A DNA stretch of 26,633 bases, taken from positions 1 through 26,633 of the IMG/VR virus record IMGVR_UViG_3300033153_004267, one strand, 5' to 3'. The stretch comes from a virus. This document shows positions 561 to 24,966 of the stretch, piece after piece. Within the stretch, counting starts at the first letter, position 1, and every line of letters starts with the position of its first letter. Below the pieces are notes generated by a model that saw only the letters and a program-made list of their open reading frames with translations, did not search any database and was not told the DNA's origin. Both the position numbers and the translations under genes were made by a program.

Positions 561-1945
561 AGCTCCTGTAAAAATCCTGACTGAGTTATATGTTTATTAC
601 TCAACGCACGTAACACCGCTTGATCTATAGTCCCTCGCATGATAAGATGGTGAATAGTAACTGCGTTCTTCTGTCCCTGCCTATGGAGCCTACCATTCAT
701 CTGATGGTACTGCTCTAAACTCCATGTTAGCCCTAGCCATAGAAGTATGTGACCACCGCTTTGTAAGTTAACTCCATGACCGAGTGACGCAGGGTGGCAC
801 AGTAGTAGCGGTAAGTTACCCTTGTTCCACTCCCGAATATAGACGGTTGCCTCATGTTGTTTCGTGCCGCCCGCGATACATGGAACCCCTTTGATTTGTT
901 TTTCAATTTGCTTACGTTCAAATTTAAACTGTATAGGACATAGGATGGGCTGGTTAGTCGATTCACGAAGTTCCTTAAGAGCCTCGATCTTGATGTTATG
1001 GATCTTTGTATAGTCCCCATCTTTATTAGTATACATGCAACCTTGAACGAATTGTCGCAGCTTACCACTAAGTGCCACTGCATTAAACACCTCCACTTCT
1101 GCGTCCTCTAGTTGTAAGAAAAATTCATTTTCGAATTCCTTGTACTGTGCCTGTAACTTAGGTGTAAGCACTAAGTTAATGGCATTGTAGGTGATAGGCT
1201 CCATCTTCAAATAGTCTTTAGCGTCTAGCCTGAATGTTATATCCTTTACCTTATCAAACATACGCTGTGCTGTATTCTCAAATGGTATAGTCTTATATAT
1301 TGGTGGGCCAGAGTAGTTAAAGTAGCTATTCCTAAATGAGTAGAACGTCTGGCCTAGTCTCTTACCCTTGTCCAGCATGAAATACTGTGACCACAATTCA
1401 TGTAGTCCGTTGGGTGCAGGTGTAGCTGATAAACACATGCGATAGTCAGTAAATATTGACATCATTTTCCTCAGCAGTTTAAACCTCTGTGTTGATGCTG
1501 ACTTCACAAACGACGACTCGTCTAAAACTAAGTTTAATTTTCGTGGTAAACGGAACTTGTTTAATATCGCACTGTAAAACCACTTCAAACCGTCGTAGTT
1601 CAGTAGGTAAATCTGCTTCTTCAACCTCAATTTCGAATCCTTCTGTGTCCCATGTAAAATGGTGTAGCTTTGATTTGGTGTCCATAATTTAATCTCCTCT
1701 GGCCATGTAGCATATGTAGTTCTCAATGGTGCAAGCACTAGAGTTGGATTCGGCAACTGTTCTATAACCTTTAAAGCTATCGCTGTCTTGCCAAGCCCAA
1801 GATCAACCATCAAGAACGGTGTCTTGTTCTCAAGGGTAAACGCTATACCCTTCTTCTGATAGTCATGCAATTTAAGAGAGGGGTGTTTTGAAACACCCCT
1901 TTCCGAGTCTGTAGGGCTACAGACTCTAGGTAGTTTCAAAGACAT
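533..1945 (-). CDS. SNF2-family (superfamily 2) DNA helicase/translocase
   Basis: This 470-aa ATP-dependent DNA translocase of the phage SNF2 type probably acts in replication or recombination. Visible motifs are Walker A DLGLGKT (48-54), the DExx box DESS (142-145), motif III SATP (173-176) and motif VI QMNGRLHRQGQ (415-425, the SNF2 QxxGRxxRxGQ signature). The family domain begins near residue 26 (LHDYQKKGI). The first 25 residues are unusual: residues 7-24 are encoded by a family B palindrome (1905-1926) and a family A palindrome (1879-1900) read in frame. The ATG at 1945 has AAAGGAAC in front and overlaps the primase end by 20 nt. A TTG just after the palindromes has no ribosome binding site, so the palindromes are probably translated. 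The family is certain; the exact N-terminus is less so. Confidence 0.93.
   Translation of the reverse strand: MSLKLPRVCSPTDSERGVSKHPSLKLHDYQKKGIAFTLENKTPFLMVDLGLGKTAIALKVIEQLPNPTLVLAPLRTTYATWPEEIKLWTPNQSYTILHGTQKDSKLRLKKQIYLLNYDGLKWFYSAILNKFRLPRKLNLVLDESSFVKSASTQRFKLLRKMMSIFTDYRMCLSATPAPNGLHELWSQYFMLDKGKRLGQTFYSFRNSYFNYSGPPIYKTIPFENTAQRMFDKVKDITFRLDAKDYLKMEPITYNAINLVLTPKLQAQYKEFENEFFLQLEDAEVEVFNAVALSGKLRQFVQGCMYTNKDGDYTKIHNIKIEALKELRESTNQPILCPIQFKFERKQIEKQIKGVPCIAGGTKQHEATVYIREWNKGNLPLLLCHPASLGHGVNLQSGGHILLWLGLTWSLEQYHQMNGRLHRQGQKNAVTIHHLIMRGTIDQAVLRALSNKHITQSGFLQELRRYRNEQT
1879..1900. repeat. Family A palindrome, in frame within the SNF2 gene
   Basis: The element has a 10-bp stem AGGGGTGTTT/AAACACCCCT around TG. 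It is read on the minus strand as RGVSKHP near residue 17 of the helicase. It lies 4 bp from a family B copy. Confidence 0.9.
1905..1926. repeat. Family B palindrome, in frame within the SNF2 gene and touching the primase stop
   Basis: The perfect 10-bp arms GAGTCTGTAG/CTACAGACTC flank GG. The element is read as VCSPTDS in the helicase N-terminus and abuts the stop codon of the primase gene (1926-1928). Confidence 0.9.
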
Positions 1946-4355
1946 AGAGTTCCTTTCGCGCTTCCTCGGTTAATGGTGGGAATATCCACTTCTTGTGGAT
2001 ACCCTGTTTTAAACATCCTTTCTCTATCACACCCACTGGACGTGATAGAGTTCTTGATTTTCTACTTGTCCCTGTATAGTCACCGCAGAATCTTTCAAGT
2101 GCGTGCTTAAGTATAGGCCGTTTAATGTTTATGGAACTATCATACTGAGCTATTAAGTTATGTATCTCTCGGGTGGTGAATAGCCTACCAGATTTATCAT
2201 TCTGTACACTAACTATACCTTTGATACCTTGTATACTCCCACTTGCGTATAGTATTTTAACAGACGTATCAAACATCTCAGTAAATAGCATGTCATAATC
2301 TGTACTAGATTTAACCTTAACATGGCACTGGTATTGAAACTCTAGTTCTTCTTCTGTTAGTAACCACGGTTGACTCCCTTTCTCCACCGCCATACGATGT
2401 AGCTGTAGTAGCTCATGAAATATGGGATGCCAGCACAGGCTCATCATTCTATCAGTATCCACCCAAGCAATAGGGATAATAAACATACGTCTACTACCTG
2501 TATCCCCGAGTTTAAATTCGCGCTGATTAGAAGTAGCCCCATATATAGCAACAGGAGAGATAGTCTTTTCATGTACTTCATATTTATCCACAAATGTTTG
2601 AGGGTTATTGTCAATTATCTTCTTGAAATTTGATTCTGTACTAGGGTTAAGGAACTGCTCTACCTCATCCCACACTACAACTAGCTTAGATACCGCTATC
2701 TTAGCTAAGTCTCGCATACTAGCTGAGTTCGAAAACCCATGTGGAGTAAATGCAATATACTTCTCACGCATGAATACTGGAAACAGACATTTAAAGTGAG
2801 ATGTCTTTCGTATCTGCTCTATCCCTGTCAATACTAGAACACAGTTGTTTACGTTAGGCTTGCCGTCATTATAATACAGGTTACGCATAAGCCCAAGCAA
2901 CCATGCAAGGTAGTATTTACGATACAACTTTAGCTCTCGCTCGTGGTCATCTGTTATGAATTCTATGGTAAGACAGTCAAATAAATCTGTAAGTGATGAC
3001 GCAGCTATGTTGTTCATGTTCTCCTGATACTCTGACGGTAGTAATTCAAGCGGAGTATCAATGTATTCCTTTACAAAGTTGATAGTTTTCTTATTTCTGG
3101 ACAGCTCGTTTTTTAGAAACTCTTTAGTCTTTGCGTGAGGTAGGCTCATAAATCCTAGCCTAGTTAGCAGCACATTAAAGCACGGGATCAAAGTCTCTCT
3201 ATTGAACGGGCCATAATACTTACCAAAGTTAAGACGCCCTGCGTATGTACTAAATTCTCCGCCGAGTATATCATCATCACCCGTGATATAGACTTCAAAC
3301 ATTGTGCCAGCACTTAGCTCATCACGGTAAAACTCTATGTTATAGAATTTTATAACGGCCTCGAAGTTTTCATATGCTGAGATGTTTGGCTTTCTTGATA
3401 TGCCTGCATCTATCTCAGCCTGCGATTGTTTCTTAGGCTTAGGCCATACAAGGGTAGCTGTATGTTGTAATTTCATCAGCGTCTTATATGTTATGTGTAT
3501 GTCAGTTGTCTCGCTGAATGAAATCCAGTGTTTAAATACATCATCGTCACTCTTAAATGCTTCATCATCACGTGACCACTCAGTTACTAAACTCAAGCAC
3601 TCAACATTCTTATCCGCCAACTGTGCATAGTTATGTACTGCCATTAGTATTTTCATCCAGAAATCATAATGGTGGTACTCCTGATTAAATACATTTTCAT
3701 AGGCTCTCCTAATTCTTGGGTTCTTATCAAGTGGGATAGCTAACAATGCCTGCTGTATCACTATCATAGATGGTAACGAACTTGGAATAACATTCGCAAT
3801 AGGCATAGCCTCTTGTGTGCCACCGCTAATATTAAATACCTCACCCAATTCTTCAAGTGATATAGTTGCTATCTTTTGTACCGAGTAAGGTGTTTCATTA
3901 CCTGTAATTGTCATCCACGGTGCGCCAAAATGTATCTCTGCTTCGGCACTTGTACCATCACCACTTTTAAGCAGCGCACGTTTGGTTTGTAGTTCGAGTT
4001 TAACTTCACTAGAGGGGAGTTTTAAAACACCCCTTAGACCTTTTCCACTGGGTGACGCTTCCCAATATGTTTCCCGCGCTAACATGAACGAGCTTATAGT
4101 ATCTGGCAAGTCATTCCACGGATCATCAGGGTTATCTACATGGTCTATATCTATAAGAACATAAGGGTCATGCTCTGTAACGTAGAACCCACGATAAAGA
4201 TTACCCGAGGACGCTAATACATCTGCTTGTTCTGCTGTCAACGCACCATCAGGAGTGTATCCAGTATGCAGTGGTCGCTTTAGTTCGAGCGGGCTATAAG
4301 AAACAGACCACTGCTTTACTTCTCGTATCTCTTTAGGCACATTTTTAATGGTCAT
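1926..4355 (-). CDS. Primase-helicase (archaeo-eukaryotic primase domain plus VirE/D5-like P-loop helicase)
   Basis: This 809-aa protein probably primes DNA synthesis and unwinds at the fork. In the N-terminal primase domain, YVLIDID (65-71) gives the paired catalytic aspartates, followed by SPSGKGLRG (101-109) and EIHF...TITG (140-152), the arrangement seen in phage primase-polymerases. The C-terminal helicase has a P-loop at 511-518 (GIEQIRKT) in which the glycine before Lys is Arg, a Walker B VVVWDEVE (559-566), and a later TGSRR that could hold an arginine finger. Residues 107-116 are encoded by a degenerate family A palindrome. The ATG overlaps the ligase stop as ATGA, so translation is probably coupled. 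Domain identity rests on motif order; the polymerase activity of the N-terminal domain is inferred. Confidence 0.85.
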   Translation of the reverse strand: MTIKNVPKEIREVKQWSVSYSPLELKRPLHTGYTPDGALTAEQADVLASSGNLYRGFYVTEHDPYVLIDIDHVDNPDDPWNDLPDTISSFMLARETYWEASPSGKGLRGVLKLPSSEVKLELQTKRALLKSGDGTSAEAEIHFGAPWMTITGNETPYSVQKIATISLEELGEVFNISGGTQEAMPIANVIPSSLPSMIVIQQALLAIPLDKNPRIRRAYENVFNQEYHHYDFWMKILMAVHNYAQLADKNVECLSLVTEWSRDDEAFKSDDDVFKHWISFSETTDIHITYKTLMKLQHTATLVWPKPKKQSQAEIDAGISRKPNISAYENFEAVIKFYNIEFYRDELSAGTMFEVYITGDDDILGGEFSTYAGRLNFGKYYGPFNRETLIPCFNVLLTRLGFMSLPHAKTKEFLKNELSRNKKTINFVKEYIDTPLELLPSEYQENMNNIAASSLTDLFDCLTIEFITDDHERELKLYRKYYLAWLLGLMRNLYYNDGKPNVNNCVLVLTGIEQIRKTSHFKCLFPVFMREKYIAFTPHGFSNSASMRDLAKIAVSKLVVVWDEVEQFLNPSTESNFKKIIDNNPQTFVDKYEVHEKTISPVAIYGATSNQREFKLGDTGSRRMFIIPIAWVDTDRMMSLCWHPIFHELLQLHRMAVEKGSQPWLLTEEELEFQYQCHVKVKSSTDYDMLFTEMFDTSVKILYASGSIQGIKGIVSVQNDKSGRLFTTREIHNLIAQYDSSINIKRPILKHALERFCGDYTGTSRKSRTLSRPVGVIEKGCLKQGIHKKWIFPPLTEEARKELYVFETT
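4013..4034. repeat. Degenerate family A palindrome inside the primase gene
   Basis: AGGGGAGTTT/AAACACCCCT around TA, with one mismatch. It is read in frame as RGVLKLP right after the conserved SGKG turn of the primase domain, in the same frame as the SNF2 copy. Confidence 0.8.
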
Positions 4356-5682: not shown

Positions 5683-5685
5683 TAG

Positions 5686-6117
5686 TTATCCTTTATGGTA
5701 TCGCTTAGTTATAAATCCCGCAGCGTCTAGCGGAAGACTACGCGCCCAGCTAGGTGGGATTCTCATTAGTCTAATCATTTCGCTGAGAGTCTGTAGGGAT
5801 ACAGACTCGACGGCTTCAACTATTATTTCATCGTGAACTGACATTATAATCTTGTAGCCTAAGCCATCCATACGTAGCTTAGCGTCAGCCATAATATCTC
5901 TCGATGATGCTTGGATAATATTCTCTGTAATTCTTCCGGGAATAAGTTTAAGCCTGTCCCACTTACGGGTGTAAGAGTTTATGCCCATGTGAGTGGGCAG
6001 TAACCCATACTTATCATCACGTATTTCTGGTGAATTATAAAATAGTGAGCGTCCTGACGGTAGCTCTAATGCTAGCCAAGATGTACCAACACGATCCTGT
6101 ATCACAGTATAGAACAT
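5686..6117 (-). CDS. Family A DNA polymerase, C-terminal part (motif C) in the -1 frame
   Basis: These 143 residues continue the polymerase palm and end: LPSGRSLFY (19-27), ENIIQASSRDIMADA (65-79) and motif C SVHDE (93-97) with the catalytic Asp. They fit directly onto the end of the 481-codon frame in front. The ATG at 6117 lies 14 nt inside that frame, shifted by -1. Adding one A to the AAA before TGTTCT would join both into a single protein (GKMFY). I see no classic slippery heptamer and only a weak ribosome binding site. The possibilities are a split polymerase made by re-initiation, a natural frameshift, or a sequencing error. Residues 104-111 come from a family B palindrome read in frame just after motif C. 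Confidence 0.85.
   Translation of the reverse strand: MFYTVIQDRVGTSWLALELPSGRSLFYNSPEIRDDKYGLLPTHMGINSYTRKWDRLKLIPGRITENIIQASSRDIMADAKLRMDGLGYKIIMSVHDEIIVEAVESVSLQTLSEMIRLMRIPPSWARSLPLDAAGFITKRYHKG
5787..5808. repeat. Family B palindrome inside the DNA polymerase gene
   Basis: GAGTCTGTAG/ATACAGACTC around GG, with 9 paired bases per arm. It is read on the minus strand as ESVSLQT, a different frame from the copy in the SNF2 gene, and lies 6 codons after the HDE motif. Confidence 0.88.
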
Positions 6118-7547
6118 TTACCAAAGGTACATTTTATTCCGGGGTTCTGGATAGCATGAATCATAGTGTCTTTAGCCTTATACCAATACTTCACCACATT
6201 CGGGTACTTGGTACGGTATGTTTTGATAGCTGTGTTAGCCTCATCATCTGTGAGCTTTATACCATACCCACCAGCATATGCTTGGAATCCTTTGCCGCCT
6301 AAGTTATACCCCGCACCTAGGATTAGAGTCTTACCCAAAGCACGTTGACTCTTGGTTACTTTATCATATTCTATTGCATATAGATCAGCAGCCATATCTA
6401 TGTACTGATCCCACCCTTGACTTACCAGTCGCAGGGCTGCAAATTCATCACAAGTCCACTTAGGTGGAGCGCATATCATAGCCCTGATAAGAGATTTTGC
6501 AGAGCCGAGCGGATCACCTGCAAAGATTGTCTTGTCATAAAACTTCTCAATCTCTGCCTCTGGATCTTCTACTTGTGCGCGAGGTAAGTTATGAAGTTGC
6601 GCTCCCATACCTGCCCATCTACCAGTGGCTGCACCATAATATCTTAGGTTGTCATAGATTCTACCCTCATAGTTCAAGTCCCTTAGCTTCTTGTACTTTG
6701 CAGTAGATGTAAGAGCAAGTTGCTTTCGAATAGTCAGCACCTGCAATACTTTCATTTCATTCTCATCTTCCGTGTTTTCCAAATCGCTCATGAACTTTGC
6801 CACGGTAGCCTTAGTTAGGTTGGGCAGCTCCACACCCATGTTATAAGACCACGCGATTATCTCTTTGATCTGGTTGTGCGAAGTCACTCTGCCGTCAGTG
6901 ATTGCTGGCAAGTCACGCTTACGTCGCTCAAGGAATAGCTGTAGTGTGTAGTAGATCCGCTTGATAGCGTATGAATCTATTGGTACACCACGAAGATTTA
7001 TTCTCTGCGTAAGTAACCATATATCCTGTTCATCCGGCGACAGTACGGTGGTAGGTAGAGCTTGTACTATCTCATACATCGCTTTCACGTCACGTATACA
7101 GTAGATTAATAAGTCTCGCAGCTCCTCTTTGGTGTGTCTAAATGGTGGTATACATATCTTTTTGATCAGCAATTTACCGCGCCGGTCTTTAATTACATTA
7201 ACTCCGAGAGTTTCCCCAGCTTGTTGTAGGTTCTGGAACAGTGTGTACCTGCCTGCTAGTGCCATTACATCTACAAGTTGCTCGATTGGAAATGGTTTGA
7301 GTCCATGCTTCGGCCCGAGTACATTCCACACAAGCCAGTCAAACATGGCATGGAACGCATACACTTTATCCTCTGGTTCTAATGTGAATGGTATAGGCTG
7401 GTTCGGCAGCCATATATTAGCATCACCATCATCTTTCTTCCACCCCATGCATATGATACTGGAGTGTGATGATGTTAGATAATTGTGGATGCCATGTTGA
7501 ATTGGTACAGAACTCCTCGTTTCAAAATCTATGTAGTAGTTATGCAT
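6102..7547 (-). CDS. Family A DNA polymerase, exonuclease and N-terminal polymerase part; motif A missing
   Basis: These 481 aa are the replicative DNA polymerase of the T7/Pol I type. The 3'-5' exonuclease motifs are DFET (7-10), HAMFD (66-70) and YCIRDV (149-154). ATGRWAG (307-313) and motif B, QRALGK with GAGYNLGG (401-418), mark the polymerase domain. The segment after RAMICAPP (355-362), where motif A (D-x-S-x-I-E-x-R and the following LAWLAG-like helix) should be, reads KWTCDEFAALRLVSQGWDQY; about 15-20 residues seem to be deleted in frame. Without that Asp the enzyme should not polymerise. The frame stops at 6104-6102 and the rest is in the -1 frame. The ATG at 7547 follows GGAGGACTAA. 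The family is certain; whether the gene works is not. Confidence 0.9.
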   Translation of the reverse strand: MHNYYIDFETRSSVPIQHGIHNYLTSSHSSIICMGWKKDDGDANIWLPNQPIPFTLEPEDKVYAFHAMFDWLVWNVLGPKHGLKPFPIEQLVDVMALAGRYTLFQNLQQAGETLGVNVIKDRRGKLLIKKICIPPFRHTKEELRDLLIYCIRDVKAMYEIVQALPTTVLSPDEQDIWLLTQRINLRGVPIDSYAIKRIYYTLQLFLERRKRDLPAITDGRVTSHNQIKEIIAWSYNMGVELPNLTKATVAKFMSDLENTEDENEMKVLQVLTIRKQLALTSTAKYKKLRDLNYEGRIYDNLRYYGAATGRWAGMGAQLHNLPRAQVEDPEAEIEKFYDKTIFAGDPLGSAKSLIRAMICAPPKWTCDEFAALRLVSQGWDQYIDMAADLYAIEYDKVTKSQRALGKTLILGAGYNLGGKGFQAYAGGYGIKLTDDEANTAIKTYRTKYPNVVKYWYKAKDTMIHAIQNPGIKCTFGKCSIL

Positions 7548-7566: not shown

Positions 7567-7594
7567 GAGAGGGGTGTTTTGAAACACCCCTCTC
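7567..7594. repeat. Family A palindrome after the ssDNA-binding protein gene
   Basis: 13-bp arms GAGAGGGGTGTTT/AAACACCCCTCTC around TG, starting 8 nt beyond the stop codon (7603) and lying before the polymerase start. There is no T-run on either side, so it is not a classic terminator. Confidence 0.92.
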
Positions 7595-8388: not shown

Positions 8389-8416
8389 GAGAGGGGTGTT
8401 TTGAAACACCCCTCTC
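8389..8416. repeat. Family A palindrome after the 175-aa gene
   Basis: 13-bp arms GAGAGGGGTGTTT/AAACACCCCTCTC, identical to the copy at 7567. It begins 9 nt after the stop at 8426 and lies 24 nt before the next start (8364). Confidence 0.92.
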
Positions 8417-10148: not shown

Positions 10149-10178
10149 TTAATTCTCCTTTCTGTTTCGGTTAGGTTA

Positions 10179-10201
10179 GAGTCTGTAGGGCATACAGACT
10201 C
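10179..10201. repeat. Family B palindrome upstream of the DUF2800-like gene
   Basis: 9-bp arms GAGTCTGTA/TACAGACTC around GGGCA. It ends 31 nt before the ATG, immediately upstream of the ribosome binding site region. Confidence 0.9.
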
Positions 10202-10213
10202 GGTTCGGGAGAG

Positions 10214-10241
10214 TAAAGGGGTGTTTTGATACACCCCTTTA
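10214..10241. repeat. Family A palindrome after the 495-aa gene
   Basis: Arms TAAAGGGGTGT/ACACCCCTTTA. It lies 14 nt past the stop at 10256 and 12 nt before the family B copy, giving the order stop, A, B, start. Confidence 0.9.
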
Positions 10242-10255
10242 CCCTGTCTCCCTCA

Positions 10256-11743
10256 TTACTTGTCGAACAGTGACGGTACAGCCTTGTTTGCATACTCAAA
10301 CAGAGCCGGGACGAGTGTCTGAATTGCCTTAACCAGAGGGGCGTTCTCCTCTATGGCATAGTCAATGTTCTCATCCATCAGTCTACCTGCAAGCATCTCC
10401 AGATCATACGCGGAGTTGATGAACTGCTTTACGGTGGCAACCACATCCATATCACCTATGTCAGCGTTTTCAGGAACTTCTGCTGTTGCCGAAGCCATAG
10501 CAGTTTCATCGGGAATGTCAGGAACGTCTGACATTGCCGCGTCTGCTGCTGCTGCTGCACCTGCATCTACCGCTGCTTCTGCTGTTTCAGGTGATGCACC
10601 ACTACTGGTCGGGGGAGTACCACCTTTCAACTCCTTGACAGCCTGAACAATCTCTTTCTCGAAGCCCATGAATCCTTGCTCCAGCAGGGAGGCGGAATCA
10701 TACGCTTCACCAGCTTCTGCTGCAGCAGAAGCTCCAGCTTTAATGGTAGCCTTGAGTTTACCATTCAGATCAAACGGTACTTGGGTCTTGGTTTTCAGGT
10801 ACTTTACCGGATCAACATTCTGATTCAGCATGAAATCCCTTGCATCTGATATGACTTTAACAGTTGCGATAGAATTGGGATCACAAACAGCATCCAAACA
10901 CCCTCGGGCAGTCTCATCTTTGTAAGCCTGAGGCCACATCTTCTCATTCTGCAAGGATGTCATGAGAGTACCCACTGCATTAGCTACAGAGATACTCGGG
11001 AGCTTGGCAACTTCCTTGGTGGAGAATACACCACGCTCTACATTCTTGATCATGCGGAGCAGGTACGAGATGGCAGTAATAGTCCACGGTTTGCCGAGAT
11101 AGTACAGGAGTGTAGCTTTCCCAACACCCTGAACTACAACATTCTTCCAAGCTACCTCATTCTTGAACACGCCCGGATGAGCTGCATCCACGTCAGACCA
11201 TTCCTCATACTCTGAGGCATACCCAAACAGAATAAGACTCCCCTGCTTAATGGTTTCCATCTGAGCCAACGGGTGAGCAGAATACGTATCCAGATTCTCA
11301 TTCGCCATCATCCTGTATCTGGTATCACTGTCAATAATCCTGACCGTACCAGCATGAAAGCGAAACTTCAGATCATCCGCTGCCCATCCCCTGTGATGAC
11401 CGGACACACGTCTGAGGGGAAACTTATCCTCGATGTGCTTGGTCTGGGGAAATGCCGTGACATACCCTTCATCGTTAAACTCAATGCCATCGACGTCAGG
11501 CACACCAAATATGGCAAACTCCTGATTCCACCACAGACCTGACTCAATGTCCTCTGTGGTTCTGGATGCCTTAATGGATGCCATAATGTCTGTGACCTTT
11601 GAGTCTATACGAGGATAGTTCTCTACATCACGATGATCATTCGGCCCGAGGATACCTGACTCTGCGTCAACGAGAAACTGTACACCTTGACTCCAGTCAT
11701 GCGCTTCCAACGATTTGAGGTCTTTTTTAGATTTTACGATCAT
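10256..11743 (-). CDS. Hypothetical protein, 495 aa, first gene of the P1 operon
   Basis: I do not recognise a family. Residues 1-340 look like an ordered globular part without membrane segments or an obvious catalytic motif (GHHRGWAADDLKFRFHAGTVR; LLYYLGKPWTITAISYLLRMI). Residues about 345-435 are Ala/Glu/Asp-rich and low in complexity, and about 440-495 form an acidic helical tail (AYDLEMLAGRLMDENIDYAIEENAPLV). The ATG has AAGGAGAATTTCAA ahead. It is the first gene after the strong promoter at 11974-12002, and its G+C-rich codon third positions, like those of the SSB gene, suggest abundant product. It heads the replication gene block, so an abundant DNA-metabolism or host-directed protein is plausible, but that is a guess. 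Confidence 0.85.
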   Translation of the reverse strand: MIVKSKKDLKSLEAHDWSQGVQFLVDAESGILGPNDHRDVENYPRIDSKVTDIMASIKASRTTEDIESGLWWNQEFAIFGVPDVDGIEFNDEGYVTAFPQTKHIEDKFPLRRVSGHHRGWAADDLKFRFHAGTVRIIDSDTRYRMMANENLDTYSAHPLAQMETIKQGSLILFGYASEYEEWSDVDAAHPGVFKNEVAWKNVVVQGVGKATLLYYLGKPWTITAISYLLRMIKNVERGVFSTKEVAKLPSISVANAVGTLMTSLQNEKMWPQAYKDETARGCLDAVCDPNSIATVKVISDARDFMLNQNVDPVKYLKTKTQVPFDLNGKLKATIKAGASAAAEAGEAYDSASLLEQGFMGFEKEIVQAVKELKGGTPPTSSGASPETAEAAVDAGAAAAADAAMSDVPDIPDETAMASATAEVPENADIGDMDVVATVKQFINSAYDLEMLAGRLMDENIDYAIEENAPLVKAIQTLVPALFEYANKAVPSLFDK

Positions 11744-11766: not shown

Positions 11767-11789
11767 GAGTCTGTAGGGTCTACAGACTC
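11767..11789. repeat. Family B palindrome in the leader of the 495-aa gene
   Basis: Perfect 10-bp arms GAGTCTGTAG/CTACAGACTC around GGT, ending 23 nt before the ATG, in the 5' leader of the P1 transcript. Confidence 0.92.
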
Positions 11790-11889: not shown

Positions 11890-11917
11890 GAAAGGGGTGT
11901 TTCGAAACACCCCTTTC
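11890..11917. repeat. Perfect 28-bp family A palindrome downstream of P1
   Basis: The 14-nt half GAAAGGGGTGTTTC is followed by its exact reverse complement, so the whole 28 bp is self-complementary. It lies in the early part of the P1 transcript. Confidence 0.92.
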
Positions 11918-11936: not shown

Positions 11937-11952
11937 ACGCATGGTTCGCGAC
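11937..11952. repeat. Solitary copy of the 14.8-kb tandem-repeat motif
   Basis: ACGCATGGTTCGCGA matches the first 15 bp of the 23-bp units at 14745-14854. It sits about 15-30 nt downstream of the expected P1 transcription start, a position suited to an operator or leader element. Confidence 0.8.
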
Positions 11953-11973: not shown

Positions 11974-12002
11974 AGTATACCACACTTTAGCTAAAATGTC
12001 AA
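11974..12002 (-). promoter_or_regulatory. sigma70 promoter P1 (leftward, replication operon)
   Basis: On the minus strand the perfect -35 TTGACA (12002-11997) is separated by 17 nt from -10 TATACT (11979-11974). Transcription would start near 11967 and run into the 495-aa gene and the replication genes. Confidence 0.88.
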
Positions 12003-12569: not shown

Positions 12570-12596
12570 CCGAGTCTGTAGGGTCTACAGACTCGG
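12570..12596. repeat. Family B palindrome before the 68-aa gene
   Basis: 12-bp arms CCGAGTCTGTAG/CTACAGACTCGG around GGT, ending 25 nt before the ATG at 12544. Confidence 0.92.
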
Positions 12597-13174: not shown

Positions 13175-13202
13175 GCCGACTCTGTAGCTCTACAGAGTCG
13201 GC
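13175..13202. repeat. Family B (variant) palindrome before the 86-aa gene
   Basis: 13-bp arms GCCGACTCTGTAG/CTACAGAGTCGGC around CT, ending 20 nt before the ATG at 13154. In the variant arm, GACTC replaces GAGTC. Confidence 0.92.
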
Positions 13203-13582: not shown

Positions 13583-13611
13583 GCCGACTCTGTAGGGTCT
13601 ACAGAGTCGGC
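13583..13611. repeat. Family B (variant) palindrome before the 114-aa gene
   Basis: 13-bp arms GCCGACTCTGTAG/CTACAGAGTCGGC around GGT, ending 23 nt before the ATG at 13559. Confidence 0.92.
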
Positions 13612-13933: not shown

Positions 13934-13958
13934 CGACTCTGTAGGGTCTACAGAGTCG
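13934..13958. repeat. Family B (variant) palindrome in the P2 leader
   Basis: 11-bp arms CGACTCTGTAG/CTACAGAGTCG around GGT, ending 29 nt before the ATG at 13904 and starting about 20 nt after the expected P2 transcription start. Confidence 0.92.
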
Positions 13959-13982: not shown

Positions 13983-14011
13983 ACTATACCATATAAAAAC
14001 TGATTTGTCAA
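13983..14011 (-). promoter_or_regulatory. sigma70 promoter P2 (leftward, small early genes)
   Basis: On the minus strand, -35 TTGACA (14011-14006), a 17-nt spacer and -10 TATAGT (13988-13983). It would drive the small-protein cluster. Confidence 0.88.
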
Positions 14012-14068: not shown

Positions 14069-14092
14069 AAGGGGTGTATCAAAACACCCCTT
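14069..14092. repeat. Family A palindrome (imperfect)
   Basis: Arms AAGGGGTGT/ACACCCCTT around ATCAAA, in the control region upstream of P2. Confidence 0.88.
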
Positions 14093-14206: not shown

Positions 14207-14409
14207 CTGTTAGAACATGAGACACTTAATATGAGACACTCTCAAACCCTCCTATATTTGATAGTCCAAACACCCCTTAGATAAACCGTGATTTGCCATT
14301 ATATTCCGGCTGATTTGGGTGGGGAGATATATATATCCCCTTGGGTGGGATAGTCCAAACACCCCTCCAAAGGGGTGGTTTAAAATAAAATTAAAGGTAG
14401 GGTCGCTCA

Positions 14410-14455
14410 GGGGGCATTTTGGGGGTGTTTGGGGGTGTTTTGGCCGTTTTGGGGG
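14410..14455 (+). other. Four GGGGG runs (possible quadruplex)
   Basis: GGGGG runs at 14410, 14421, 14431 and 14451 are separated by 6, 5 and 15 nt. Three of them are followed by TGTTT, as in half of a family A element, so they may be remnants of that repeat. Confidence 0.65.
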
Positions 14456-14670
14456 TGTTTCGGATTTGATATAAAAATAAAAAAATTCTGGCTAAAGACT
14501 ATTATAGAAACGTCTAAAACACCCCTTTAAAACAATCTAAAGTCTATAAGAACTATATATATTTTATATCTTTATATTATTTGCTCTAACATACTGAAAT
14601 GATTAGAAAAAATGAGATATAAACATAAAATAAAGAAATTCTATGATTATGTGAGCTTTTAATTCTATTT

Positions 14671-14686: not shown

Positions 14687-14687
14687 A

Positions 14688-14713
14688 AAAGGGGTGTTTC
14701 AAAATACCCCTTT
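14688..14713. repeat. Family A palindrome (imperfect)
   Basis: Arms AAAGGGGTGTTT and AAATACCCCTTT around CA, with one G:T pair. It is followed 14 nt later by TATAAT (14728-14733). Confidence 0.85.
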
Positions 14714-14744: not shown

Positions 14745-14854
14745 ACGCATGGTTCGCGAGGACTCTAACGCATGGTTCGCGAGGACTCTAACGCATGGTT
14801 CGCGAGGACTCTAACGCATGGTTCGCGAGCACCCTAACGCATGGTTCGCGAGGA
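14745..14854. repeat. Tandem array of five 23-bp repeats (iteron-like)
   Basis: Units begin at 14745, 14768, 14791, 14814 and 14837. Each starts ACGCATGGTTCGCGAG and ends GACTCTA, with a variant fourth unit and a partial fifth. The spacing of 23 bp is about two helical turns, so bound proteins would line up on one DNA face. A sixth, isolated copy of the core lies at 11937. Candidate origin or operator array. Confidence 0.85.
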
Positions 14855-14961
14855 CAGCCGGACGCGCGCCCGCGTGTGCGCCCGCGCGCCTGAGCGCATG
14901 TGCGCATACATGTGAGCGCACACATACGGGGGCGCGCCTGAGCGCGCTCAGATGCCCGTGT
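14855..14961. other. GC-rich island with alternating purine-pyrimidine tracts
   Basis: This block is very rich in CG/GC steps and unlike the AT-rich DNA around it. It contains a direct repeat GCGCGCCTGAGCGC (14884-14897, 14932-14945), an inverted repeat TGTGCGC/GCGCACA (14899-14922) and the perfect palindrome CTGAGCGCGCTCAG (14938-14951). I see no convincing gene; the open frame across it has no ribosome binding site and a composition driven by the repeats. Confidence 0.65.
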
Positions 14962-14983
14962 ACGGGTGTTTTAAAATACCCCT
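14962..14983. repeat. Family A palindrome (degenerate)
   Basis: Arms ACGGGTGTTT and AAATACCCCT around TA, at the right edge of the GC-rich island, with two imperfect pairs. Confidence 0.75.
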
Positions 14984-15023: not shown

Positions 15024-15046
15024 GACTCTGTAGGCCCTACAGAGTC
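15024..15046. repeat. Family B (variant) palindrome
   Basis: 11-bp arms GACTCTGTAGG/CCTACAGAGTC around a single C, next to the terminator. Unlike most family B copies it is not in front of a start codon. Confidence 0.9.
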
Positions 15047-15051
15047 AAGGC

Positions 15052-15090
15052 AAAAAAAAAGCCTACACGGAAAAGATCCGTGTAGGCTTA
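15052..15090 (-). terminator. Intrinsic terminator of the solitary regulator-like gene
   Basis: On the minus strand, 12-bp arms AAGCCTACACGG/CCGTGTAGGCTT around a 7-nt loop are followed by a run of T (complement of the A-run 15052-15060). A second, T-less hairpin (GCCCCC/GGGGGC, 15098-15113) lies between it and the stop codon. Confidence 0.92.
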
Positions 15091-15122: not shown

Positions 15123-15779
15123 TTAGTCACTCAATTCTGCGAGAATTTCAGAAAGGTCGCTACAGATGCCTTTCTGTTTGTCCGTGAATTCAACCGCATT
15201 TCCGTAAGCAATAAGAAGCTGAGCGATGGAAACCATAGAGTCCAGAGCTTCGGTCAATTCCATGCCCTCGGTCTTAATTACGCTCCCGGCTGCATCATCC
15301 TTATCTGCGCCCTTGCCCTTGCCCGCTTTCTTATCTGCGCCCTTGCCCGTGTTTCCAACCGAGGGGACTTTCTTGCCATCTTTGTCAAGCTTGCCATCTC
15401 TGATTGACCGGAATGTCCTGACAATTGTTTGGGGAGATGTTTTGGCTTTATGCGCCTTACGCTTAAGCATCTTAATCACGTCCGCTTTATTTTTGTACAT
15501 GCTAAGATAAAACGCCACGTAATTCTGATGTATTTTCGGGCAGTTATCAGACAACCAAGTTCCAAAGGCTTGCGTTTCCCCGCCGAAATACTCATCCTTG
15601 ACAATTGCAAGCTGCTCCCCAATATCAAACATGCGGGTCTGCATGACCGCGGCTGATTTCTCCTGAGCAGACGCAAGCTTGTTAATAGCGCGTTTAAACT
15701 CTTTAGGCACATGGAATTCAACTACGTTGCTGTTGTCAGATGCTTCAGTTGCGATGGCCAAATTTTGATTTTCCGTCAT
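15123..15779 (-). CDS. DUF3102-like protein, possible regulator, 218 aa
   Basis: The start at 15779 is chosen because AAGGAGAGTTACC precedes it and the promoter P3 lies inside the longer open frame. Residues about 35-100 (EKSAAVMQTRMFDIGEQLAIVKDEYFG..., FGTWLSDNCPKIHQNYVAFY) resemble the DUF3102 pattern seen in phage proteins. Residues about 125-165 form a Lys/Gly/Asp-rich linker (GKGADKKAGKGKGADKDD), and a C-terminal helix pair ends the protein. It is a one-gene unit with its own sigma70 promoter, a possible operator in its leader and an intrinsic terminator, lying between leftward and rightward operons. That layout suggests a regulator or an independently controlled early factor; the DUF3102 likeness is tentative. 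Confidence 0.8.
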   Translation of the reverse strand: MTENQNLAIATEASDNSNVVEFHVPKEFKRAINKLASAQEKSAAVMQTRMFDIGEQLAIVKDEYFGGETQAFGTWLSDNCPKIHQNYVAFYLSMYKNKADVIKMLKRKAHKAKTSPQTIVRTFRSIRDGKLDKDGKKVPSVGNTGKGADKKAGKGKGADKDDAAGSVIKTEGMELTEALDSMVSIAQLLIAYGNAVEFTDKQKGICSDLSEILAELSD

Positions 15780-15922: not shown

Positions 15923-15948
15923 TCGAGTCTGTAGCCCTACAGATTCGA
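15923..15948. repeat. Family B palindrome behind P3
   Basis: Arms TCGAGTCTGTAG/CTACAGATTCGA around CC, with one mismatch. It is the most rightward family B copy in the window. Confidence 0.88.
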
Positions 15949-16097
15949 CGAAACCGACGGCAACTTCCCTCATGCCCGCAGGTATTAGAACGCATGTAGG
16001 CAGGAGTTTTTTTACGCGCCCGTTTTAGTACGCGCGCGCCTGTACGGGGGTACACCCCCGCGATCCCGCGCATGCACTGTCACGGTGGGACTTCTGA

Positions 16098-16150
16098 CGA
16101 TTTTTTTTTGATTTTCGATTTGGGCGATTTTTTTTTGATTTTCGATTTGG
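16098..16150. repeat. Two 26-bp T-tract direct repeats
   Basis: Each copy is CGA, nine T, then GATTTTCGATTTGG, at 16098-16123 and 16125-16150 (period 27). Phased A/T tracts of this kind bend DNA and are often found near promoters or origins. Confidence 0.8.
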
Positions 16151-16193: not shown

Positions 16194-16215
16194 AGGGGTG
16201 TTCCAAAACACCCCT
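16194..16215. repeat. Family A palindrome
   Basis: Arms AGGGGTGTT/AACACCCCT around CCAA, in the control region ahead of the late promoter. Confidence 0.9.
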
Positions 16216-16343: not shown

Positions 16344-16372
16344 TTGACAAATTCCACCGGATGTGCTATAAT
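16344..16372 (+). promoter_or_regulatory. Consensus sigma70 late promoter (rightward)
   Basis: TTGACA (16344-16349), a 17-nt spacer and TATAAT (16367-16372) are perfect consensus. It is the only strong rightward promoter I see and stands in front of the packaging and virion genes, with the expected start near 16379. Confidence 0.92.
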
Positions 16373-16384: not shown

Positions 16385-16402
16385 GTGGAGATATATCTCC
16401 AC
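16385..16402. promoter_or_regulatory. 18-bp perfect palindrome at the late transcript start
   Basis: GTGGAGATATATCTCCAC lies about +6 to +23 of the late transcript. It can be an operator for a dimeric repressor or a 5' hairpin that protects the mRNA. A related GGGGAGATATATATATCCCC is at 14321-14340. Confidence 0.7.
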
Positions 16403-16420: not shown

Positions 16421-16448
16421 CAAAGGGGTGTTTTAGAACACCCCTTTG
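16421..16448. repeat. Family A palindrome in the late leader
   Basis: Arms CAAAGGGGTGTT/AACACCCCTTTG around TTAG. It ends 24 nt before the small terminase ATG, the one late family A copy in front of a gene rather than behind one. Confidence 0.9.
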
Positions 16449-17018: not shown

Positions 17019-17036
17019 TTTGATTCTCCTTTTGGG

Positions 17037-17064
17037 GAGAGGGGTGTTCTGAAACACCCCTCTC
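17037..17064. repeat. Family A palindrome after the small terminase gene
   Basis: Arms GAGAGGGGTGTT/AACACCCCTCTC with a 4-nt centre. It starts 19 nt past the stop and ends 21 nt before the large terminase ATG. Confidence 0.92.
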
Positions 17065-17085
17065 CTCATCCTTAAAGGATACTAA

Positions 17086-18399
17086 ATGAAAGTTGTGTTA
17101 CCACATAAGTTTGTACCACGAACGTATCAGACACCACTGTTCTCCTGTCTTGATTCAGGATATAAAAGAGGTGCCGTTATATGGCATCGCAGAGCTGGTA
17201 AAGATTTGACGTTTATGAACATCCTCACTAAAGAGTGTTTCAAGAAAGTTGGCACTTACTTCTACATTCTTCCATTCTACAAACAGGCTAGGATAATCAT
17301 TTGGGAAGGGATTACTTCTAATGGCACAGCCTTTATTGATTTTATACCTGAAGTTCTTATCGCTCATAAAGATAATCAACAGATGGTTATCAAACTCATC
17401 AATGGGAGTATTATCCGCTTTCTTGGTAGTGACAATATTGATAGTATTGTGGGGACTAATCCTGTTGGGGTTATATTCTCTGAGTATAGTCTGCATCGTC
17501 CTCAAGCATGGCAGTATCTACGTCCAATCTTGGTTGAAAACAAGGGCTGGGCGTTATTTAATTTCACGCCTCGCGGTATAAACCACGCATATAACCTCTA
17601 CACGGCAGCATGTTCTGATTCCGGGTGGTTCACGGAAAAACTTACTATAGAAGATACCAAAAGACACGGTGGTGGTGCTGTTGTCTCCTCGCGGGATATT
17701 GAGATGGAGAGAGCTTCGGGGATGCCTGAGGCTCTCATCCAGCAGGAGTATTTTTGCTCATTCACGGCGGGAGTTGTGGGGTCTTACTATGCGACGTTGA
17801 TTGACAGGCTGTACTCGCAGAAGCGGATAACTTCTGTTCCACACGAGCCAGCACTTCCGGTGTATACTGCGTGGGATTTGGGGATTGCGGACTCTACAGC
17901 CATTTGGTTTTTCCAGATTTGGGGTCGAGAAGTCCGGTGTATACGGTACTACGAGAACGAGGGTGAAGCTATGCCCCACTATATAAACTATTGTAAGACT
18001 CTGAGGGATGAAGAGGATTATAACTTCGCTGAACATTTTGGGCCACACGATATTGAAGTCCGTGAGCTATCATCCGGTAGAAGTCGTAGAGAGATAGCTG
18101 CTGATCTTGGGTTTTATTTCAGTGTAGTGCCTAAACTGTCTATAGCTGATGGCGTAGAAGCAGTTAGGTCTGTACTTCCTGTATGTATGTTCGATGATGT
18201 GAAGTGTAAAGTCGGAGTTGATGCGCTGATGAACTACCAGAAACGGTATAATGAAAAGCAGCAGTCGTATTCTGATACTCCGTTGAAGAATTGGGCTTGT
18301 CACGGTGCAGATGCGTATAGGTATTTGGCAGTTACGGTTAATTTCTTATTTGAGTCTAGTGTAACTAGGAAACCAAGAGTTCGTAGAGCAATGGGGTAA
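17086..18399 (+). CDS. Terminase large subunit
   Basis: This 437-aa motor ATPase and nuclease pumps DNA into the prohead and cuts it. Motifs in order: WHRRAGKD (33-40, Walker A), VGVIFSEY (127-134, Walker B with Glu133 as catalytic carboxylate), FNFTPRG (158-164, coupling motif), then the RNase H-like nuclease with AWDLGIADST (262-271, Asp264) and HGADAYRYLA near the C-terminus carrying the last catalytic Asp. Length and motif order fit the podovirus type. AAGGATACTAA stands before the ATG. The stop codon TAA shares two bases with the following family A palindrome. Confidence 0.95.
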   Translation: MKVVLPHKFVPRTYQTPLFSCLDSGYKRGAVIWHRRAGKDLTFMNILTKECFKKVGTYFYILPFYKQARIIIWEGITSNGTAFIDFIPEVLIAHKDNQQMVIKLINGSIIRFLGSDNIDSIVGTNPVGVIFSEYSLHRPQAWQYLRPILVENKGWALFNFTPRGINHAYNLYTAACSDSGWFTEKLTIEDTKRHGGGAVVSSRDIEMERASGMPEALIQQEYFCSFTAGVVGSYYATLIDRLYSQKRITSVPHEPALPVYTAWDLGIADSTAIWFFQIWGREVRCIRYYENEGEAMPHYINYCKTLRDEEDYNFAEHFGPHDIEVRELSSGRSRREIAADLGFYFSVVPKLSIADGVEAVRSVLPVCMFDDVKCKVGVDALMNYQKRYNEKQQSYSDTPLKNWACHGADAYRYLAVTVNFLFESSVTRKPRVRRAMG

Positions 18400-18421
18400 G
18401 GGGTGTTTCAAAACACCCCTT
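18398..18421. repeat. Family A palindrome overlapping the large terminase stop
   Basis: Arms AAGGGGTGTTT/AAACACCCCTT around CA. Its first two A bases are the end of the TAA stop, so it begins exactly where translation ends. Confidence 0.92.
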
Positions 18422-22182: not shown

Positions 22183-22190
22183 ACTTAACC

Positions 22191-22220
22191 AGAGAGGGGT
22201 GTTTCAAAACACCCCTCTCT
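22191..22220. repeat. Family A palindrome after the capsid gene
   Basis: 14-bp arms AGAGAGGGGTGTTT/AAACACCCCTCTCT around CA, the longest copy in the late region, starting 9 nt after the stop. Confidence 0.93.
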
Positions 22221-22239
22221 TGGGCGCGGGGGGAATATA

Positions 22240-22434
22240 ATGTCAATTATAGGTGTAGAAAGTGGATTGATTCAGTCGGCATTACCTGATTTGGTACTCG
22301 GTTCTTGTTTTGAAATTACAAGTGCGGGGGAAAAATTAGATGTATTGCTTTTCGCTAACTTGAGCGCAGGTACTAACGCAACTGCAGCAGCAAAGAGAGA
22401 CAAAGATGTAGATGCGGTAGCTGCAACACCCTAA
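22240..22434 (+). CDS. Hypothetical protein, 64 aa
   Basis: No family recognised. A hydrophobic, strand-like first half (VESGLIQSALPDLVLGSCFEI, LDVLLFANL) is followed by an Ala/Thr/Asp-rich tail. GGGGGGAATATA stands before the ATG. Its place between capsid and tail-tube genes suggests a minor virion or assembly protein. Confidence 0.75.
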   Translation: MSIIGVESGLIQSALPDLVLGSCFEITSAGEKLDVLLFANLSAGTNATAAAKRDKDVDAVAATP

Positions 22435-22445
22435 AAGGAGATAGC

Positions 22446-22652
22446 ATGAAATCAGGGGCAAATCCAAATGATAGAATCAACATCAAGCGTATGCACAGGA
22501 TGAAAAAAACTCCTGATGTTATCGCAAAGGCACTGAATTTAAGTGTCGATACTGTAACGTCTTTACTCGGGTTAGATACTCCGAAAAAGACTACGGCTAA
22601 ACCCGAATCGAATCGTGTAGTTATTCCGGGATTGCCTAAAACCGAAACTTAA
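22446..22652 (+). CDS. Hypothetical protein, 68 aa, with helix-turn-helix-like segment
   Basis: TPDVIAKALNLSVDTVTSLLG (residues about 20-40) resembles a small helix-turn-helix; the N-terminus is basic (RINIKRMHRMKK). AAAGGAGATAGC is the ribosome binding site. The gene sits 11 nt after the 64-aa gene. It could bind DNA, but position also fits a head-completion role; I cannot decide. Confidence 0.75.
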   Translation: MKSGANPNDRINIKRMHRMKKTPDVIAKALNLSVDTVTSLLGLDTPKKTTAKPESNRVVIPGLPKTET

Positions 22653-22663
22653 AGAGGTGAAGT

Positions 22664-23236
22664 ATGGCTTCAACAGTAGATATTTGTAACATCGCAATAG
22701 GTTGGCTAGCAGGTAATCTTATTACTGATTTATCAGATGACTCTGTTGAAGCTAAACTTTGCAAGGCTAACTTTGACTCCTGCCGGGATTCAGTTTTAGA
22801 AGATAAGGCTTGGACGTTTGCTGTTAAGCGTGTTAAAATAGCGCACACTGCTGACATTGCTATCCCGGAGTCATTCAAAACATTTTTAAAACCCCCAGAT
22901 TGTATTCGGGTATTACAGGTGAGCGCGTCCCCAAATTTTGATGACTACTTGTACTGGGTTTTAGAGGGTGATCATATATTATCTGAGGCGACAGTAGTTT
23001 TTGTGCGGTACATACATAGAGTAGTAGATACTGAAAAGTTTTCTGCGAACTTTGTACAGGCATTAGCTGCTAGATTATCTTCTGATTTGGCAATCCCCTT
23101 GACTGAATCCACCGGCATACACAAATCTATGTGGACGCTGTATGAAAATAAACTCTACGAAGCAGGTAATACTGATGGTATGCAAGGACGATCTGAGAAG
23201 TTTAGGTCATACCGTCTGGTAAATGCGAGGAGATAA
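22664..23236 (+). CDS. Tail tubular protein A (T7 gp11-like adaptor)
   Basis: This 190-aa protein would form the ring joining portal and tail nozzle. The start MASTVDICNIAIGWLAGN..ITDLSDDSVEAKLCKANFDSCRDSVLEDKAWTFA follows the conserved gp11 pattern (CN.AL..LG...I.sl...s..A..c...y...rd.vL....W.FA). The length matches the family. AAAGAGGTGAAGT stands before the ATG. The stop overlaps the next start by 1 nt (TAATG), so the two tail-tube proteins are coupled. Confidence 0.92.
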   Translation: MASTVDICNIAIGWLAGNLITDLSDDSVEAKLCKANFDSCRDSVLEDKAWTFAVKRVKIAHTADIAIPESFKTFLKPPDCIRVLQVSASPNFDDYLYWVLEGDHILSEATVVFVRYIHRVVDTEKFSANFVQALAARLSSDLAIPLTESTGIHKSMWTLYENKLYEAGNTDGMQGRSEKFRSYRLVNARR

Positions 23237-24942
23237 TGTCTAAAACTCATCCGATACAAACATCTTTTGCTGCTGGCGAATTAAGCCATGATCTGTGGGG
23301 TAGGATAGACACTGACATTTATAAAGCCGGTGTCTTTCGTTCTATGAATATGATCCCAGATCCTCGTGGGCCGATTGAAAGACGCGCGGGATCAGAACAT
23401 AAAAATGAAGTATCTACTAGCAACGTTGGTTGCGTATTAAAAACTTTTTTCTACAACCGAGAGCACACTTATGTATTGGCAGTATCTCCCGGCCATACAC
23501 ACGTTATTTTACCTAATGGTGATATGGTTAAGACTGTGCCTAATCTGTATACTTTAGAAGATTTGACTGAGTTACAGGCGGAGATGCATCCGAGTGGTCT
23601 TAGAATATACTTCACTCATAAACTTCATCATCCTACGCAGTTAGTGTATACTGTTTCAACCCGTTCTTTTGTGTACGAAGATGTGCCGTTTGCGCATATG
23701 CCCTCTGATTGGGGAGTGAACAACTATCCTAGAACTGTAGCAATACATCAAGGTAGATCATGGTGGGCTGGAACAGTTGAACAGCCTACTGGAATTTGGT
23801 CTAGTAAATCTGGAGACTATGATAATCTTTCTCCCGGTGGCGCAGATGATGATGGTGTGACTATGCAAGTTCCGCGTCATGGTACAATCATGTGGATGGC
23901 AGCTAGTAGAGAGTTATTAGTTGGTACAGAGTTAGATGAATTTGCGCTTTTACCTTTGACTGCTTCAGATTTTGTACTTAAAACAGATAACATTAAAATC
24001 GTACGTCAGTTATCAAATGGTACGTCACACATTAAACCTGAAATGATGCACACGTCTTTGATGTTCGTAAATGCTAACCGTAATAAACTTAGGTCTATGT
24101 GGTACTCGTGGACAGAAGATGGATGGCAGTCTACAGATTTAACTTTCAATAGTAATCACATACTTGAATCTCACGTACTAGATTCTACTGTAATGTACGA
24201 ACCTAATTTGCGTATGGTTCTCATATTAGAGAACGGAAATATGGCTATATGCTCATACTATCAAGATGGGGAGAAAGATCCTGTTCTTGGGTGGGGCTTG
24301 CATAATACTGATGGTATGTTTTTATCTGCTACTCGTCTACAGCTTAATACTGGAGATGAGTTATGGGTAGCAGTTAAACGCACCTTACCTACAGGGGATA
24401 GAATATACGTCGAAAAAATAGCGTTAAGCGGAGACAAAAAATTTTACTTAGATAGTCATAAGGTGACGAAATTTAGTACACCTACTAAAGTAGTGACTGG
24501 ACTTCTTCACCTTGAGGGTAAAGAAGTTCATCCAGTAGTAAATGAAGGTGCTATACACCGACCGCTAACGGTTTCTGGCGGAGAGATAACACTCGATAAT
24601 GAAGTTGATTCGGTAGTAGTGGGATTATTAAGCGAGTGCTACTTAGAGACTCTACCATTAATTACGCTAGCTCAGGGCGAATCCACGGCAGGACATATGA
24701 AGCGGTGGGTTACAGCTAAGATACGTTTGTGGGATTCGGCTAAGCCCCACATAAATGGCATACTCCCACCTGACAGATTCCCCTCTACTCTTATGAATAC
24801 TACTGAACCTAATAGGACTCAGTTACTTGACGTTACTAACTTAGGTAGATCGGTAGATGCGTCACTATACATAGACATGAGGATACCAAGAGCGTTAAAA
24901 GTTATTAACATAACAGGAGAATTAGGCGCAAACGCGCTCTAA
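23236..24942 (+). CDS. Tail tubular protein B (T7 gp12-like nozzle)
   Basis: This 568-aa protein would make the tail nozzle. The N-terminus (HPIQTSFAAGELSHDLWGRIDTDIYKAGVFRSMNMIPDPRGPIERRAGSEH) is the characteristic start of this family: T.F..GELSP.l.gR.D...Y..g...l.N....p.G...RR.G. AGGAGATAATG provides start and coupling to tail tube A. It is somewhat shorter than T7 gp12. The TAA stop overlaps the following family A palindrome. Confidence 0.92.
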   Translation: MSKTHPIQTSFAAGELSHDLWGRIDTDIYKAGVFRSMNMIPDPRGPIERRAGSEHKNEVSTSNVGCVLKTFFYNREHTYVLAVSPGHTHVILPNGDMVKTVPNLYTLEDLTELQAEMHPSGLRIYFTHKLHHPTQLVYTVSTRSFVYEDVPFAHMPSDWGVNNYPRTVAIHQGRSWWAGTVEQPTGIWSSKSGDYDNLSPGGADDDGVTMQVPRHGTIMWMAASRELLVGTELDEFALLPLTASDFVLKTDNIKIVRQLSNGTSHIKPEMMHTSLMFVNANRNKLRSMWYSWTEDGWQSTDLTFNSNHILESHVLDSTVMYEPNLRMVLILENGNMAICSYYQDGEKDPVLGWGLHNTDGMFLSATRLQLNTGDELWVAVKRTLPTGDRIYVEKIALSGDKKFYLDSHKVTKFSTPTKVVTGLLHLEGKEVHPVVNEGAIHRPLTVSGGEITLDNEVDSVVVGLLSECYLETLPLITLAQGESTAGHMKRWVTAKIRLWDSAKPHINGILPPDRFPSTLMNTTEPNRTQLLDVTNLGRSVDASLYIDMRIPRALKVINITGELGANAL

Positions 24943-24966
24943 AGGGGTGTTTTGAAACACCCCTTT
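24941..24966. repeat. Family A palindrome overlapping the tail tube B stop
   Basis: 12-bp arms AAAGGGGTGTTT/AAACACCCCTTT around TG. It begins in the TAA stop and ends 13 nt before the next ATG. Confidence 0.92.

Follow-up and report, generated by a model that had tools for sequence, protein, structure and literature searches.

The virus record IMGVR_UViG_3300033153_004267 (the window: the whole stretch of 26,633 nucleotides that was analyzed, a 26.6-kb virus record) contains two diverging arms of genes, two families of short dispersed palindromes (A and B) and a parB-like gene, and the relationship between the palindromes and this gene is the subject of the present analysis. The leftward replication arm encodes a helicase, a primase, a ligase, a VRR nuclease, PolA, a gp2.5-like SSB and an exonuclease, the rightward structural arm contains terminase, portal, head, and tail tubular-like genes, and the two are separated by a control region of ~2.5 kb, in which strong promoters of the sigma-70 type are located at 16344 (+), 14011 (−), and 12002 (−). 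Overall, 87.6% of the window is coding. No named phage in the phage record collection matched the window at the DNA level, and terminase identity to named phages is at most 46.6%. The features considered are the following:

10256–11743, minus strand: parB-like gene, 495 amino acids, proposed binder of A
16344–16372, plus strand: sigma-70-type promoter of the rightward structural operon (12/12)
13983–14011, minus strand: leftward promoter (11/12)
11974–12002, minus strand: leftward promoter ahead of the parB-like gene (11/12)
15048–15089, minus strand: ordinary intrinsic terminator, a contrast to A and B
1873–1902: A copy 1, shortly beyond the primase stop, within the helicase N-terminus
4011–4035: A copy 2, degenerate, inside the primase gene
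7567–7594: A copy 3, SSB/PolA junction
8389–8416: A copy 4
10213–10242: A copy 5, parB-like/exonuclease junction; an extended hairpin, likewise extended there in four relatives
11890–11917: A copy 6, parB-like leader, at ~+64 relative to the leftward promoter start
14069–14092: A copy 7, central control region
14687–14713: A copy 8, central control region
14962–14983: A copy 9, degenerate, central control region
16194–16215: A copy 10, upstream of the rightward promoter
16421–16448: A copy 11, centre at +55 from the rightward promoter start
17036–17065: A copy 12, between terS and terL; L072 and L073 have a swapped core and conserved flanks
18398–18421: A copy 13, overlaps the terL stop; core swapped in L072/L073
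21197–21220: A copy 14, overlaps the stop of the scaffold-position gene
22191–22220: A copy 15, behind the gene for the major head protein; L073 has a swapped core
24941–24966: A copy 16, overlaps the tail gene stop
14261–14525: cluster of single A half-sites (AAACACCCCT / GGGGGTGTTT), control region
1905–1926: B copy 1, in a coding overlap
5787–5808: B copy 2, inside the PolA C-terminal open reading frame
10179–10201: B copy 3, 31 nt before the exonuclease start
11767–11789: B copy 4, 24 nt before the parB-like start
12570–12596: B copy 5
13175–13202: B copy 6
13583–13611: B copy 7
13934–13958: B copy 8, ~+18 to +42 from a leftward promoter start
15024–15046: B copy 9, control region
15923–15949: B copy 10, one mismatch, upstream of a leftward promoter

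All palindromes listed in the initial annotation, 16 of family A and 10 of family B, were found at its coordinates, which supports two families with a genome-wide distribution. The window contains 27 perfect-arm palindromes (arm of at least 9, loop of at most 6) compared with a mean of 0.93 and a maximum of 4 in 30 dinucleotide shuffles. All 16 A copies share one centre. The centres are predominantly intergenic in both families (14 out of 16 A copies, P=1.9e-11; 8 out of 10 B copies, P=2e-6); the A copies at 1879 and 4013 and the B copies at 1905 and 5787 lie inside genes, with those at 1905, 4013, and 5787 in frame. The description of their placement was reproduced: eight A copies overlap a stop codon or follow one by at most 18 nt, three of the A copies share bases with a TAA, six B copies end 21–31 nt ahead of a start codon, the order across 10149–10255 is stop, A, B, start, and A is present in both arms while B occurs solely to the left of the rightward promoter.

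The proposed division of labor, with A behind stop codons and B in front of start codons, stood in part. Seven A copies also end 14–25 nt before a start codon and, within gaps that contain a single element, the distance to the start is the same for A and B (P=0.30); the distance to the stop differs slightly, with A closer to the stop (P=0.037, 7 vs. 3 gaps). The division is mostly a matter of gap geometry, as the elements fill the short space between stop codon and Shine–Dalgarno sequence. Intrinsic terminators, defined by a G+C stem followed by a T-run on the transcribed strand, were excluded since the T-run is absent from the transcribed strand of all copies, as had been annotated; the sole clear intrinsic terminator runs from 15089 to 15048 on the minus strand. 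A separate case is an unrelated phage (G012, a 62-kb contig, L175–L178) with 18 palindromes of the type GGGGTGTyCGAACACCCC, mostly at gene junctions and many followed by TTTT (e.g., L175:11426, 12157, 13192, and 18868). These look like a uniform set of ordinary T-run intrinsic terminators, and a ParB domain is absent from this phage.

A terminase search resulted in 55 viral loci, among which A-like palindrome families are carried at a terminase identity of at least 52% and are mostly absent at 50% or less. The sequence of the family differs between relatives: the window and its twin from the same sample share AGGGGTGTTyrAAACACCCCT, L072 has ATGGGTGCCAyrTGGCACCCAT, L073 has GTGGGTGTTTTAAAACACCCAC, and the group with 52–55% terminase identity has GAyTGCCACyrGTGGCArTC (41 stretches in a pattern scan). 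In all loci tested the window, L072, L073, and GAyTGCCAC types are mutually exclusive, with one type per genome and no leftovers, and terminase identity is 82–83% for L072 and L073. Relatives carry their palindromes at conserved positions, as the initial annotation had implied: the same gene junctions are occupied, although the cores differ. At the terS/terL, terL/portal, pre-terS, and post-head-protein junctions, the flanks of the window align with those of the relatives and the core is replaced. The distance of the first A site from the rightward promoter start is +55 in the window, +55 in L072, and +51 in L073, and +39 and +26 in two others. Such a concerted change of a whole family at fixed positions is typical of sites that a co-evolving trans factor reads.

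The same comparison bears on the idea that the elements are selfish mobile palindromes, akin to REP elements or Rickettsia palindromes, that multiply across the genome, for which the many near-identical copies and the few copies in frame inside genes (1905, 4013, and 5787) could be cited. The occupation of the same junctions in relatives with differing cores and conserved flanks, where only the scaffold/head junction of L073 is empty among the junctions compared, and the restriction to one type per genome speak against it. Conserved positions with swapped cores led to the rejection of mobile palindromes, which are an exceedingly improbable explanation.

The initial annotation had interpreted both families as RNA punctuation, that is, hairpins in the transcripts that act as 3′-end protectors, processing sites, or leader stabilizers. 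From the relatives, 128 distinct TGCCAC elements were collected, of which 98 are independent after related contexts were merged. Pair 7 (T-A or C-G) shows no covariation in 86 out of 98 copies (P=0.28), whereas 12 out of 98 carry six or more additional compensated pairs (shuffle mean 1.75, maximum 7) and in these extended copies pair 7 covaries perfectly (P=0.001). Among the 98, stem covariation is confined to these 12 copies. The extended hairpins recur at the parB-exonuclease junction (G001, G003, G004, G006, and 10213 in the window) and ahead of the tail tubular A-like gene. The half-site spacing is 2 in 128 out of 129 relative copies, the unpaired variants do not favor wobble on the transcript (25 C-A vs. 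18 T-G), and the orientation of the A centre (CA vs. TG) is ~23:20 in the four larger relative records and inconsistent between genomes. Several relative copies of A contain a GTG gene start; in the 52–55% group a small conserved gene takes its GTG start codon from an A site (AAGGAGACTGCCACCAGTG; L075 5577, L163 5913, L165 2894, and others). The missing covariation, the fixed spacing, and the lack of a consistent orientation indicate that most A copies behave as protein-bound DNA sites and that a minority are real hairpins, a distinction drawn from sequence comparison.

Two findings weigh against a pure DNA-site explanation. The outer stem pairs of A covary in the window's own group (P=0.0002), and the L073 copies have copy-specific compensated flanks that a DNA dimer site does not need. 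Furthermore, the A and B leaders of the window fold much better than shuffles (z of −5 to −6.5), and in the B copies of the window pair 8 flips jointly between G-C and C-G (9/10, P=0.004) with a spacer of 2 or 3 nt. The extended covarying A subset, about one in eight copies at recurrent junctions, may thus have an RNA role, and in the window group, where the outer pairs covary more broadly, an RNA or cruciform role may apply as well. As a general role of A, RNA punctuation did not hold up given the mostly missing covariation, the fixed 2-nt spacing, the lack of orientation, the gene start inside the element, and the accompanying protein with a predicted ParB/Noc fold; the swapping of whole families, each genome keeping to one type, is difficult to account for unless a sequence-specific trans factor is involved. 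Overall, RNA punctuation is considered unlikely, and as a general explanation for both families it is unsupported. No known RNA family was matched: the Rfam covariance models gave nothing beyond a chance mir-155 match (E=0.41).

The ParB fold is familiar from the partition of chromosomes and plasmids and from KorB and Noc. A parB-like gene is located upstream of the exonuclease gene in the window and five relatives, with the G004 homolog at 37595–38698. The protein of a relative matches ParB PHROGs (4.7e-6), other homologs match PF02195 and PF17762 (ParB_N and HTH_ParB) weakly, though in the right order, and G002 matches the ParB domain. In a Foldseek search, the structural model of a relative (predicted local distance difference test, pLDDT, of 77.9) matched Noc (3.6e-6), Caulobacter crescentus ParB (5.6e-6), and KorB (5.9e-4), with a probability of 1.00, and the low-confidence model of the window protein (pLDDT 53.8) matched Noc with a probability of 0.97 (next best 0.25). 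The predicted architecture is a ParB N-terminal fold followed by a ParB-type helix-turn-helix (HTH). Among five genomes with one palindrome, 76% of the HTH segment, the most conserved part, is invariant compared with 16–50% elsewhere, and the exposed residues of its recognition helix are not the same in the window (SRQTIQDA vs. TITAISYL), which also has a different palindrome. The A1 profile identifies the parB-like gene in the window and five relatives and in no palindrome-poor record, and the gene is present in 7 out of 7 sampled records with palindromes and a left arm compared with 0 out of 11 palindrome-poor relatives (Fisher 3e-5). Palindromic sites with a fixed half-site spacing are what the ParB/Noc/KorB family would be expected to recognize, and the A copies are putative cognate sites. 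A protein for each palindrome family had been suggested before; the product of the parB-like gene, a predicted ParB/Noc-fold DNA-binding protein that accompanies the A sites, is now a candidate for the binder of A. Scans with the parB-like protein returned none in Genome Taxonomy Database (GTDB) contigs, only the already known contigs among viral contigs, and no hit in phage records, and scans with the exonuclease and with the window parB-like protein alone gave no matches.

Several observations count against the assignment and against the pairing of the protein with A. The ParB_N and HTH_ParB hidden Markov model scores are below the Pfam cut-offs, the window protein by itself hits no family, and no ParB was returned when the PDB was searched by sequence profile with the five-member alignment. 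The CTPase motif, for which GxRR and ENxxR were looked for, is partly kept: GHHR and EN are invariant and the ENxxR arginine is absent. The co-occurrence partly reflects ancestry since the records are few and related, and the match between protein change and site change is a single contrast because the parB-like genes of L072 and L073 lie off their contigs. Finally, A could be bound by another phage protein, for example, the 218-amino acid product of 15123–15779, with the ParB-like protein being incidental. This leftward gene lies by the control region, and a leftward gene of like size and motif pattern is present at the same place in several palindrome genomes; the look-alikes (FGxWxxxxFP) are hardly alignable, indicating very fast evolution. 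The product has no DNA-binding family hit, however, and the predicted ParB fold, with its conserved HTH, is well suited to palindrome binding. Another binder is considered highly improbable.

In six out of six genomes, the parB-like leader contains a B-type palindrome particular to that genome, a descriptive count since these genomes also served to define the B patterns. The B sequences are mostly unrelated between genomes, with one type shared by G003 and G004, and the GAGTC-type B was found in no other viral contigs. The covariation at pair 8 and the spacer of 2 or 3 nt are more in keeping with a leader hairpin than with a rigid dimer site; together with the location just upstream of the Shine–Dalgarno sequence they make the leader-hairpin part of the earlier interpretation plausible for B. 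The leader position suggests an involvement of B in the control of the parB-like gene. In L084, a 60-bp perfect palindrome surrounds a B-type core (CCAACATGTTGG) in the control region (6618–6677).

Taken together, A probably represents parS/OB-like sites that are recognized by a phage-encoded ParB/Noc/KorB-like regulator, an interpretation based on sequence comparison and structural models. A dimeric protein of this type would recognize the dispersed palindromes, and their position at gene junctions would reflect the room for a 20-bp site that is available there, from a stop codon to a Shine–Dalgarno sequence. The protein would be made early from the leftward operon and load at A sites genome-wide, dampening or timing transcription as KorB of RK2 and mycobacteriophage stoperators do. 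We infer the binding of A by the ParB-like protein, the transcriptional effect, and its timing; by analogy with KorB (PMC11790492) and stoperators (PMC6550527), a transcriptional role is the most likely function of A. The elongated A subset, including the copy behind the parB-like gene, forms a stable hairpin that may also act on the transcript. B would be a second element with an evolution of its own, located ahead of the parB-like gene and further early genes. It may be a leader hairpin or else serve as operator for another, KorA-like regulator.

Cluster A mycobacteriophages (PMC6550527) also have dispersed sites that are mostly intergenic and vary in sequence between relatives, and there they serve as immunity stoperators of temperate phages; by this account, a repressor would block elongation at A in the prophage. 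No tyrosine integrase (PF00589) was found in 19 records, which may be incomplete and in which serine integrases and repressors were not searched, and no match to the ParA ATPase (PF13614) was found in 8 records. The phage is apparently lytic, a label taken solely from the missing integrase and ParA in incomplete or unverified records. Stoperators are asymmetric and mostly in one orientation, whereas A is symmetric without a consistent orientation bias. The lack of integrase and ParA and the symmetry of the sites lower the case for stoperator immunity, which is very unlikely.

Additional features were observed in the window and its relatives. PolA is split into two overlapping open reading frames in the window (5686–6117 and 6102–7547) and is a single one of 653–666 amino acids in the relatives; the split represents a frameshift, either programmed or a sequencing error. 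The control region contains five iteron-like 23-bp tandem repeats (ACGCATGGTTCGCGAGGACTCTA, 14745–14859), with an extra single copy of ACGCATGGTTCGCGA at 11937–11951 beside the leftward promoter at 12002. A 26-bp exact duplication (CGATTTTTTTTTGATTTTCGATTTGG) is located at 16098–16150, upstream of the rightward promoter, and a palindrome (GTGGAGATATATCTCCAC) at 16385–16402 lies at the very start of the rightward transcript, between the promoter and the first A site. In G004, a repetitive GNSxQxGxSxQ protein (L167 703–1560) that belongs to a PHROG of unknown function is encoded beside the control region.

A wider and more tentative possibility, on the doubtful side, is that a nonintegrating podovirus-like clade controls its whole genome by a ParB-type sliding clamp at dozens of junction sites, with a second palindrome family controlling the clamp gene and specificities that turn over in concert, a phage counterpart of KorAB with incompatibility between cousins. 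A ParB-like protein with genome-wide cognate sites in an apparently virulent phage that lacks ParA and integrase was not found in the literature searched and, if true, an apparently lytic virus would have a genome-wide control of a new kind. The concerted site swap between genomes with 82–83% identical terminases makes operator–regulator coevolution directly testable, and the system would yield new orthogonal ParB/parS-like pairs for DNA labeling.

Among known systems, the SAS/ESAS of cluster K mycobacteriophages resemble B as repeats at translation starts, about half of them with 17-bp inverted repeats and a variable spacer (PMC3203893). B is, in contrast, a perfect palindrome of different sequence without the 13-bp SAS (GGGATAGGAGCCC), which was not seen at B sites in the sequence examined, and no shared genes are known. 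The L5-like stoperators share with A the dispersed sites that vary between relatives and are matched by the regulator (PMC6550527); they differ in their asymmetry, their mostly single orientation along transcription, and their occurrence in temperate phages, and the L5-like regulator is a monomeric repressor (PMC9283540) that is not ParB-like. The Noc/NBS and ParB/parS systems provide the best structural matches (7nfu and 6t1f). Their sites are 16-bp palindromes (TATTTCCCGGGAAATA and TGTTTCACGTGAAACA) with a fixed centre and a specificity encoded in the HTH (PMC7383237), and the A sites of L072 contain CCACGTGG, a likeness to these sites. The A sequences are nevertheless different, rapidly changing, ~20 bp long, and located genome-wide at gene junctions, and the ParA partner of a ParABS system was not found (8 records, PF13614). 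KorB, a ParB-family CTPase of plasmid RK2 that acts at OB, differs in that the phage is a virus, apparently not temperate, with A sites behind genes in both arms; KorA sits at promoters (PMC11790492) while B is mostly in leaders rather than core promoters and is perhaps a hairpin, and no KorA homolog was identified. The phage nevertheless shares with RK2 a ParB-fold protein that would act on expression from distal sites, a structural match to KorB (8qa8), and a second palindrome family near early promoters and in the parB-like leader, comparable to KorA/OA.

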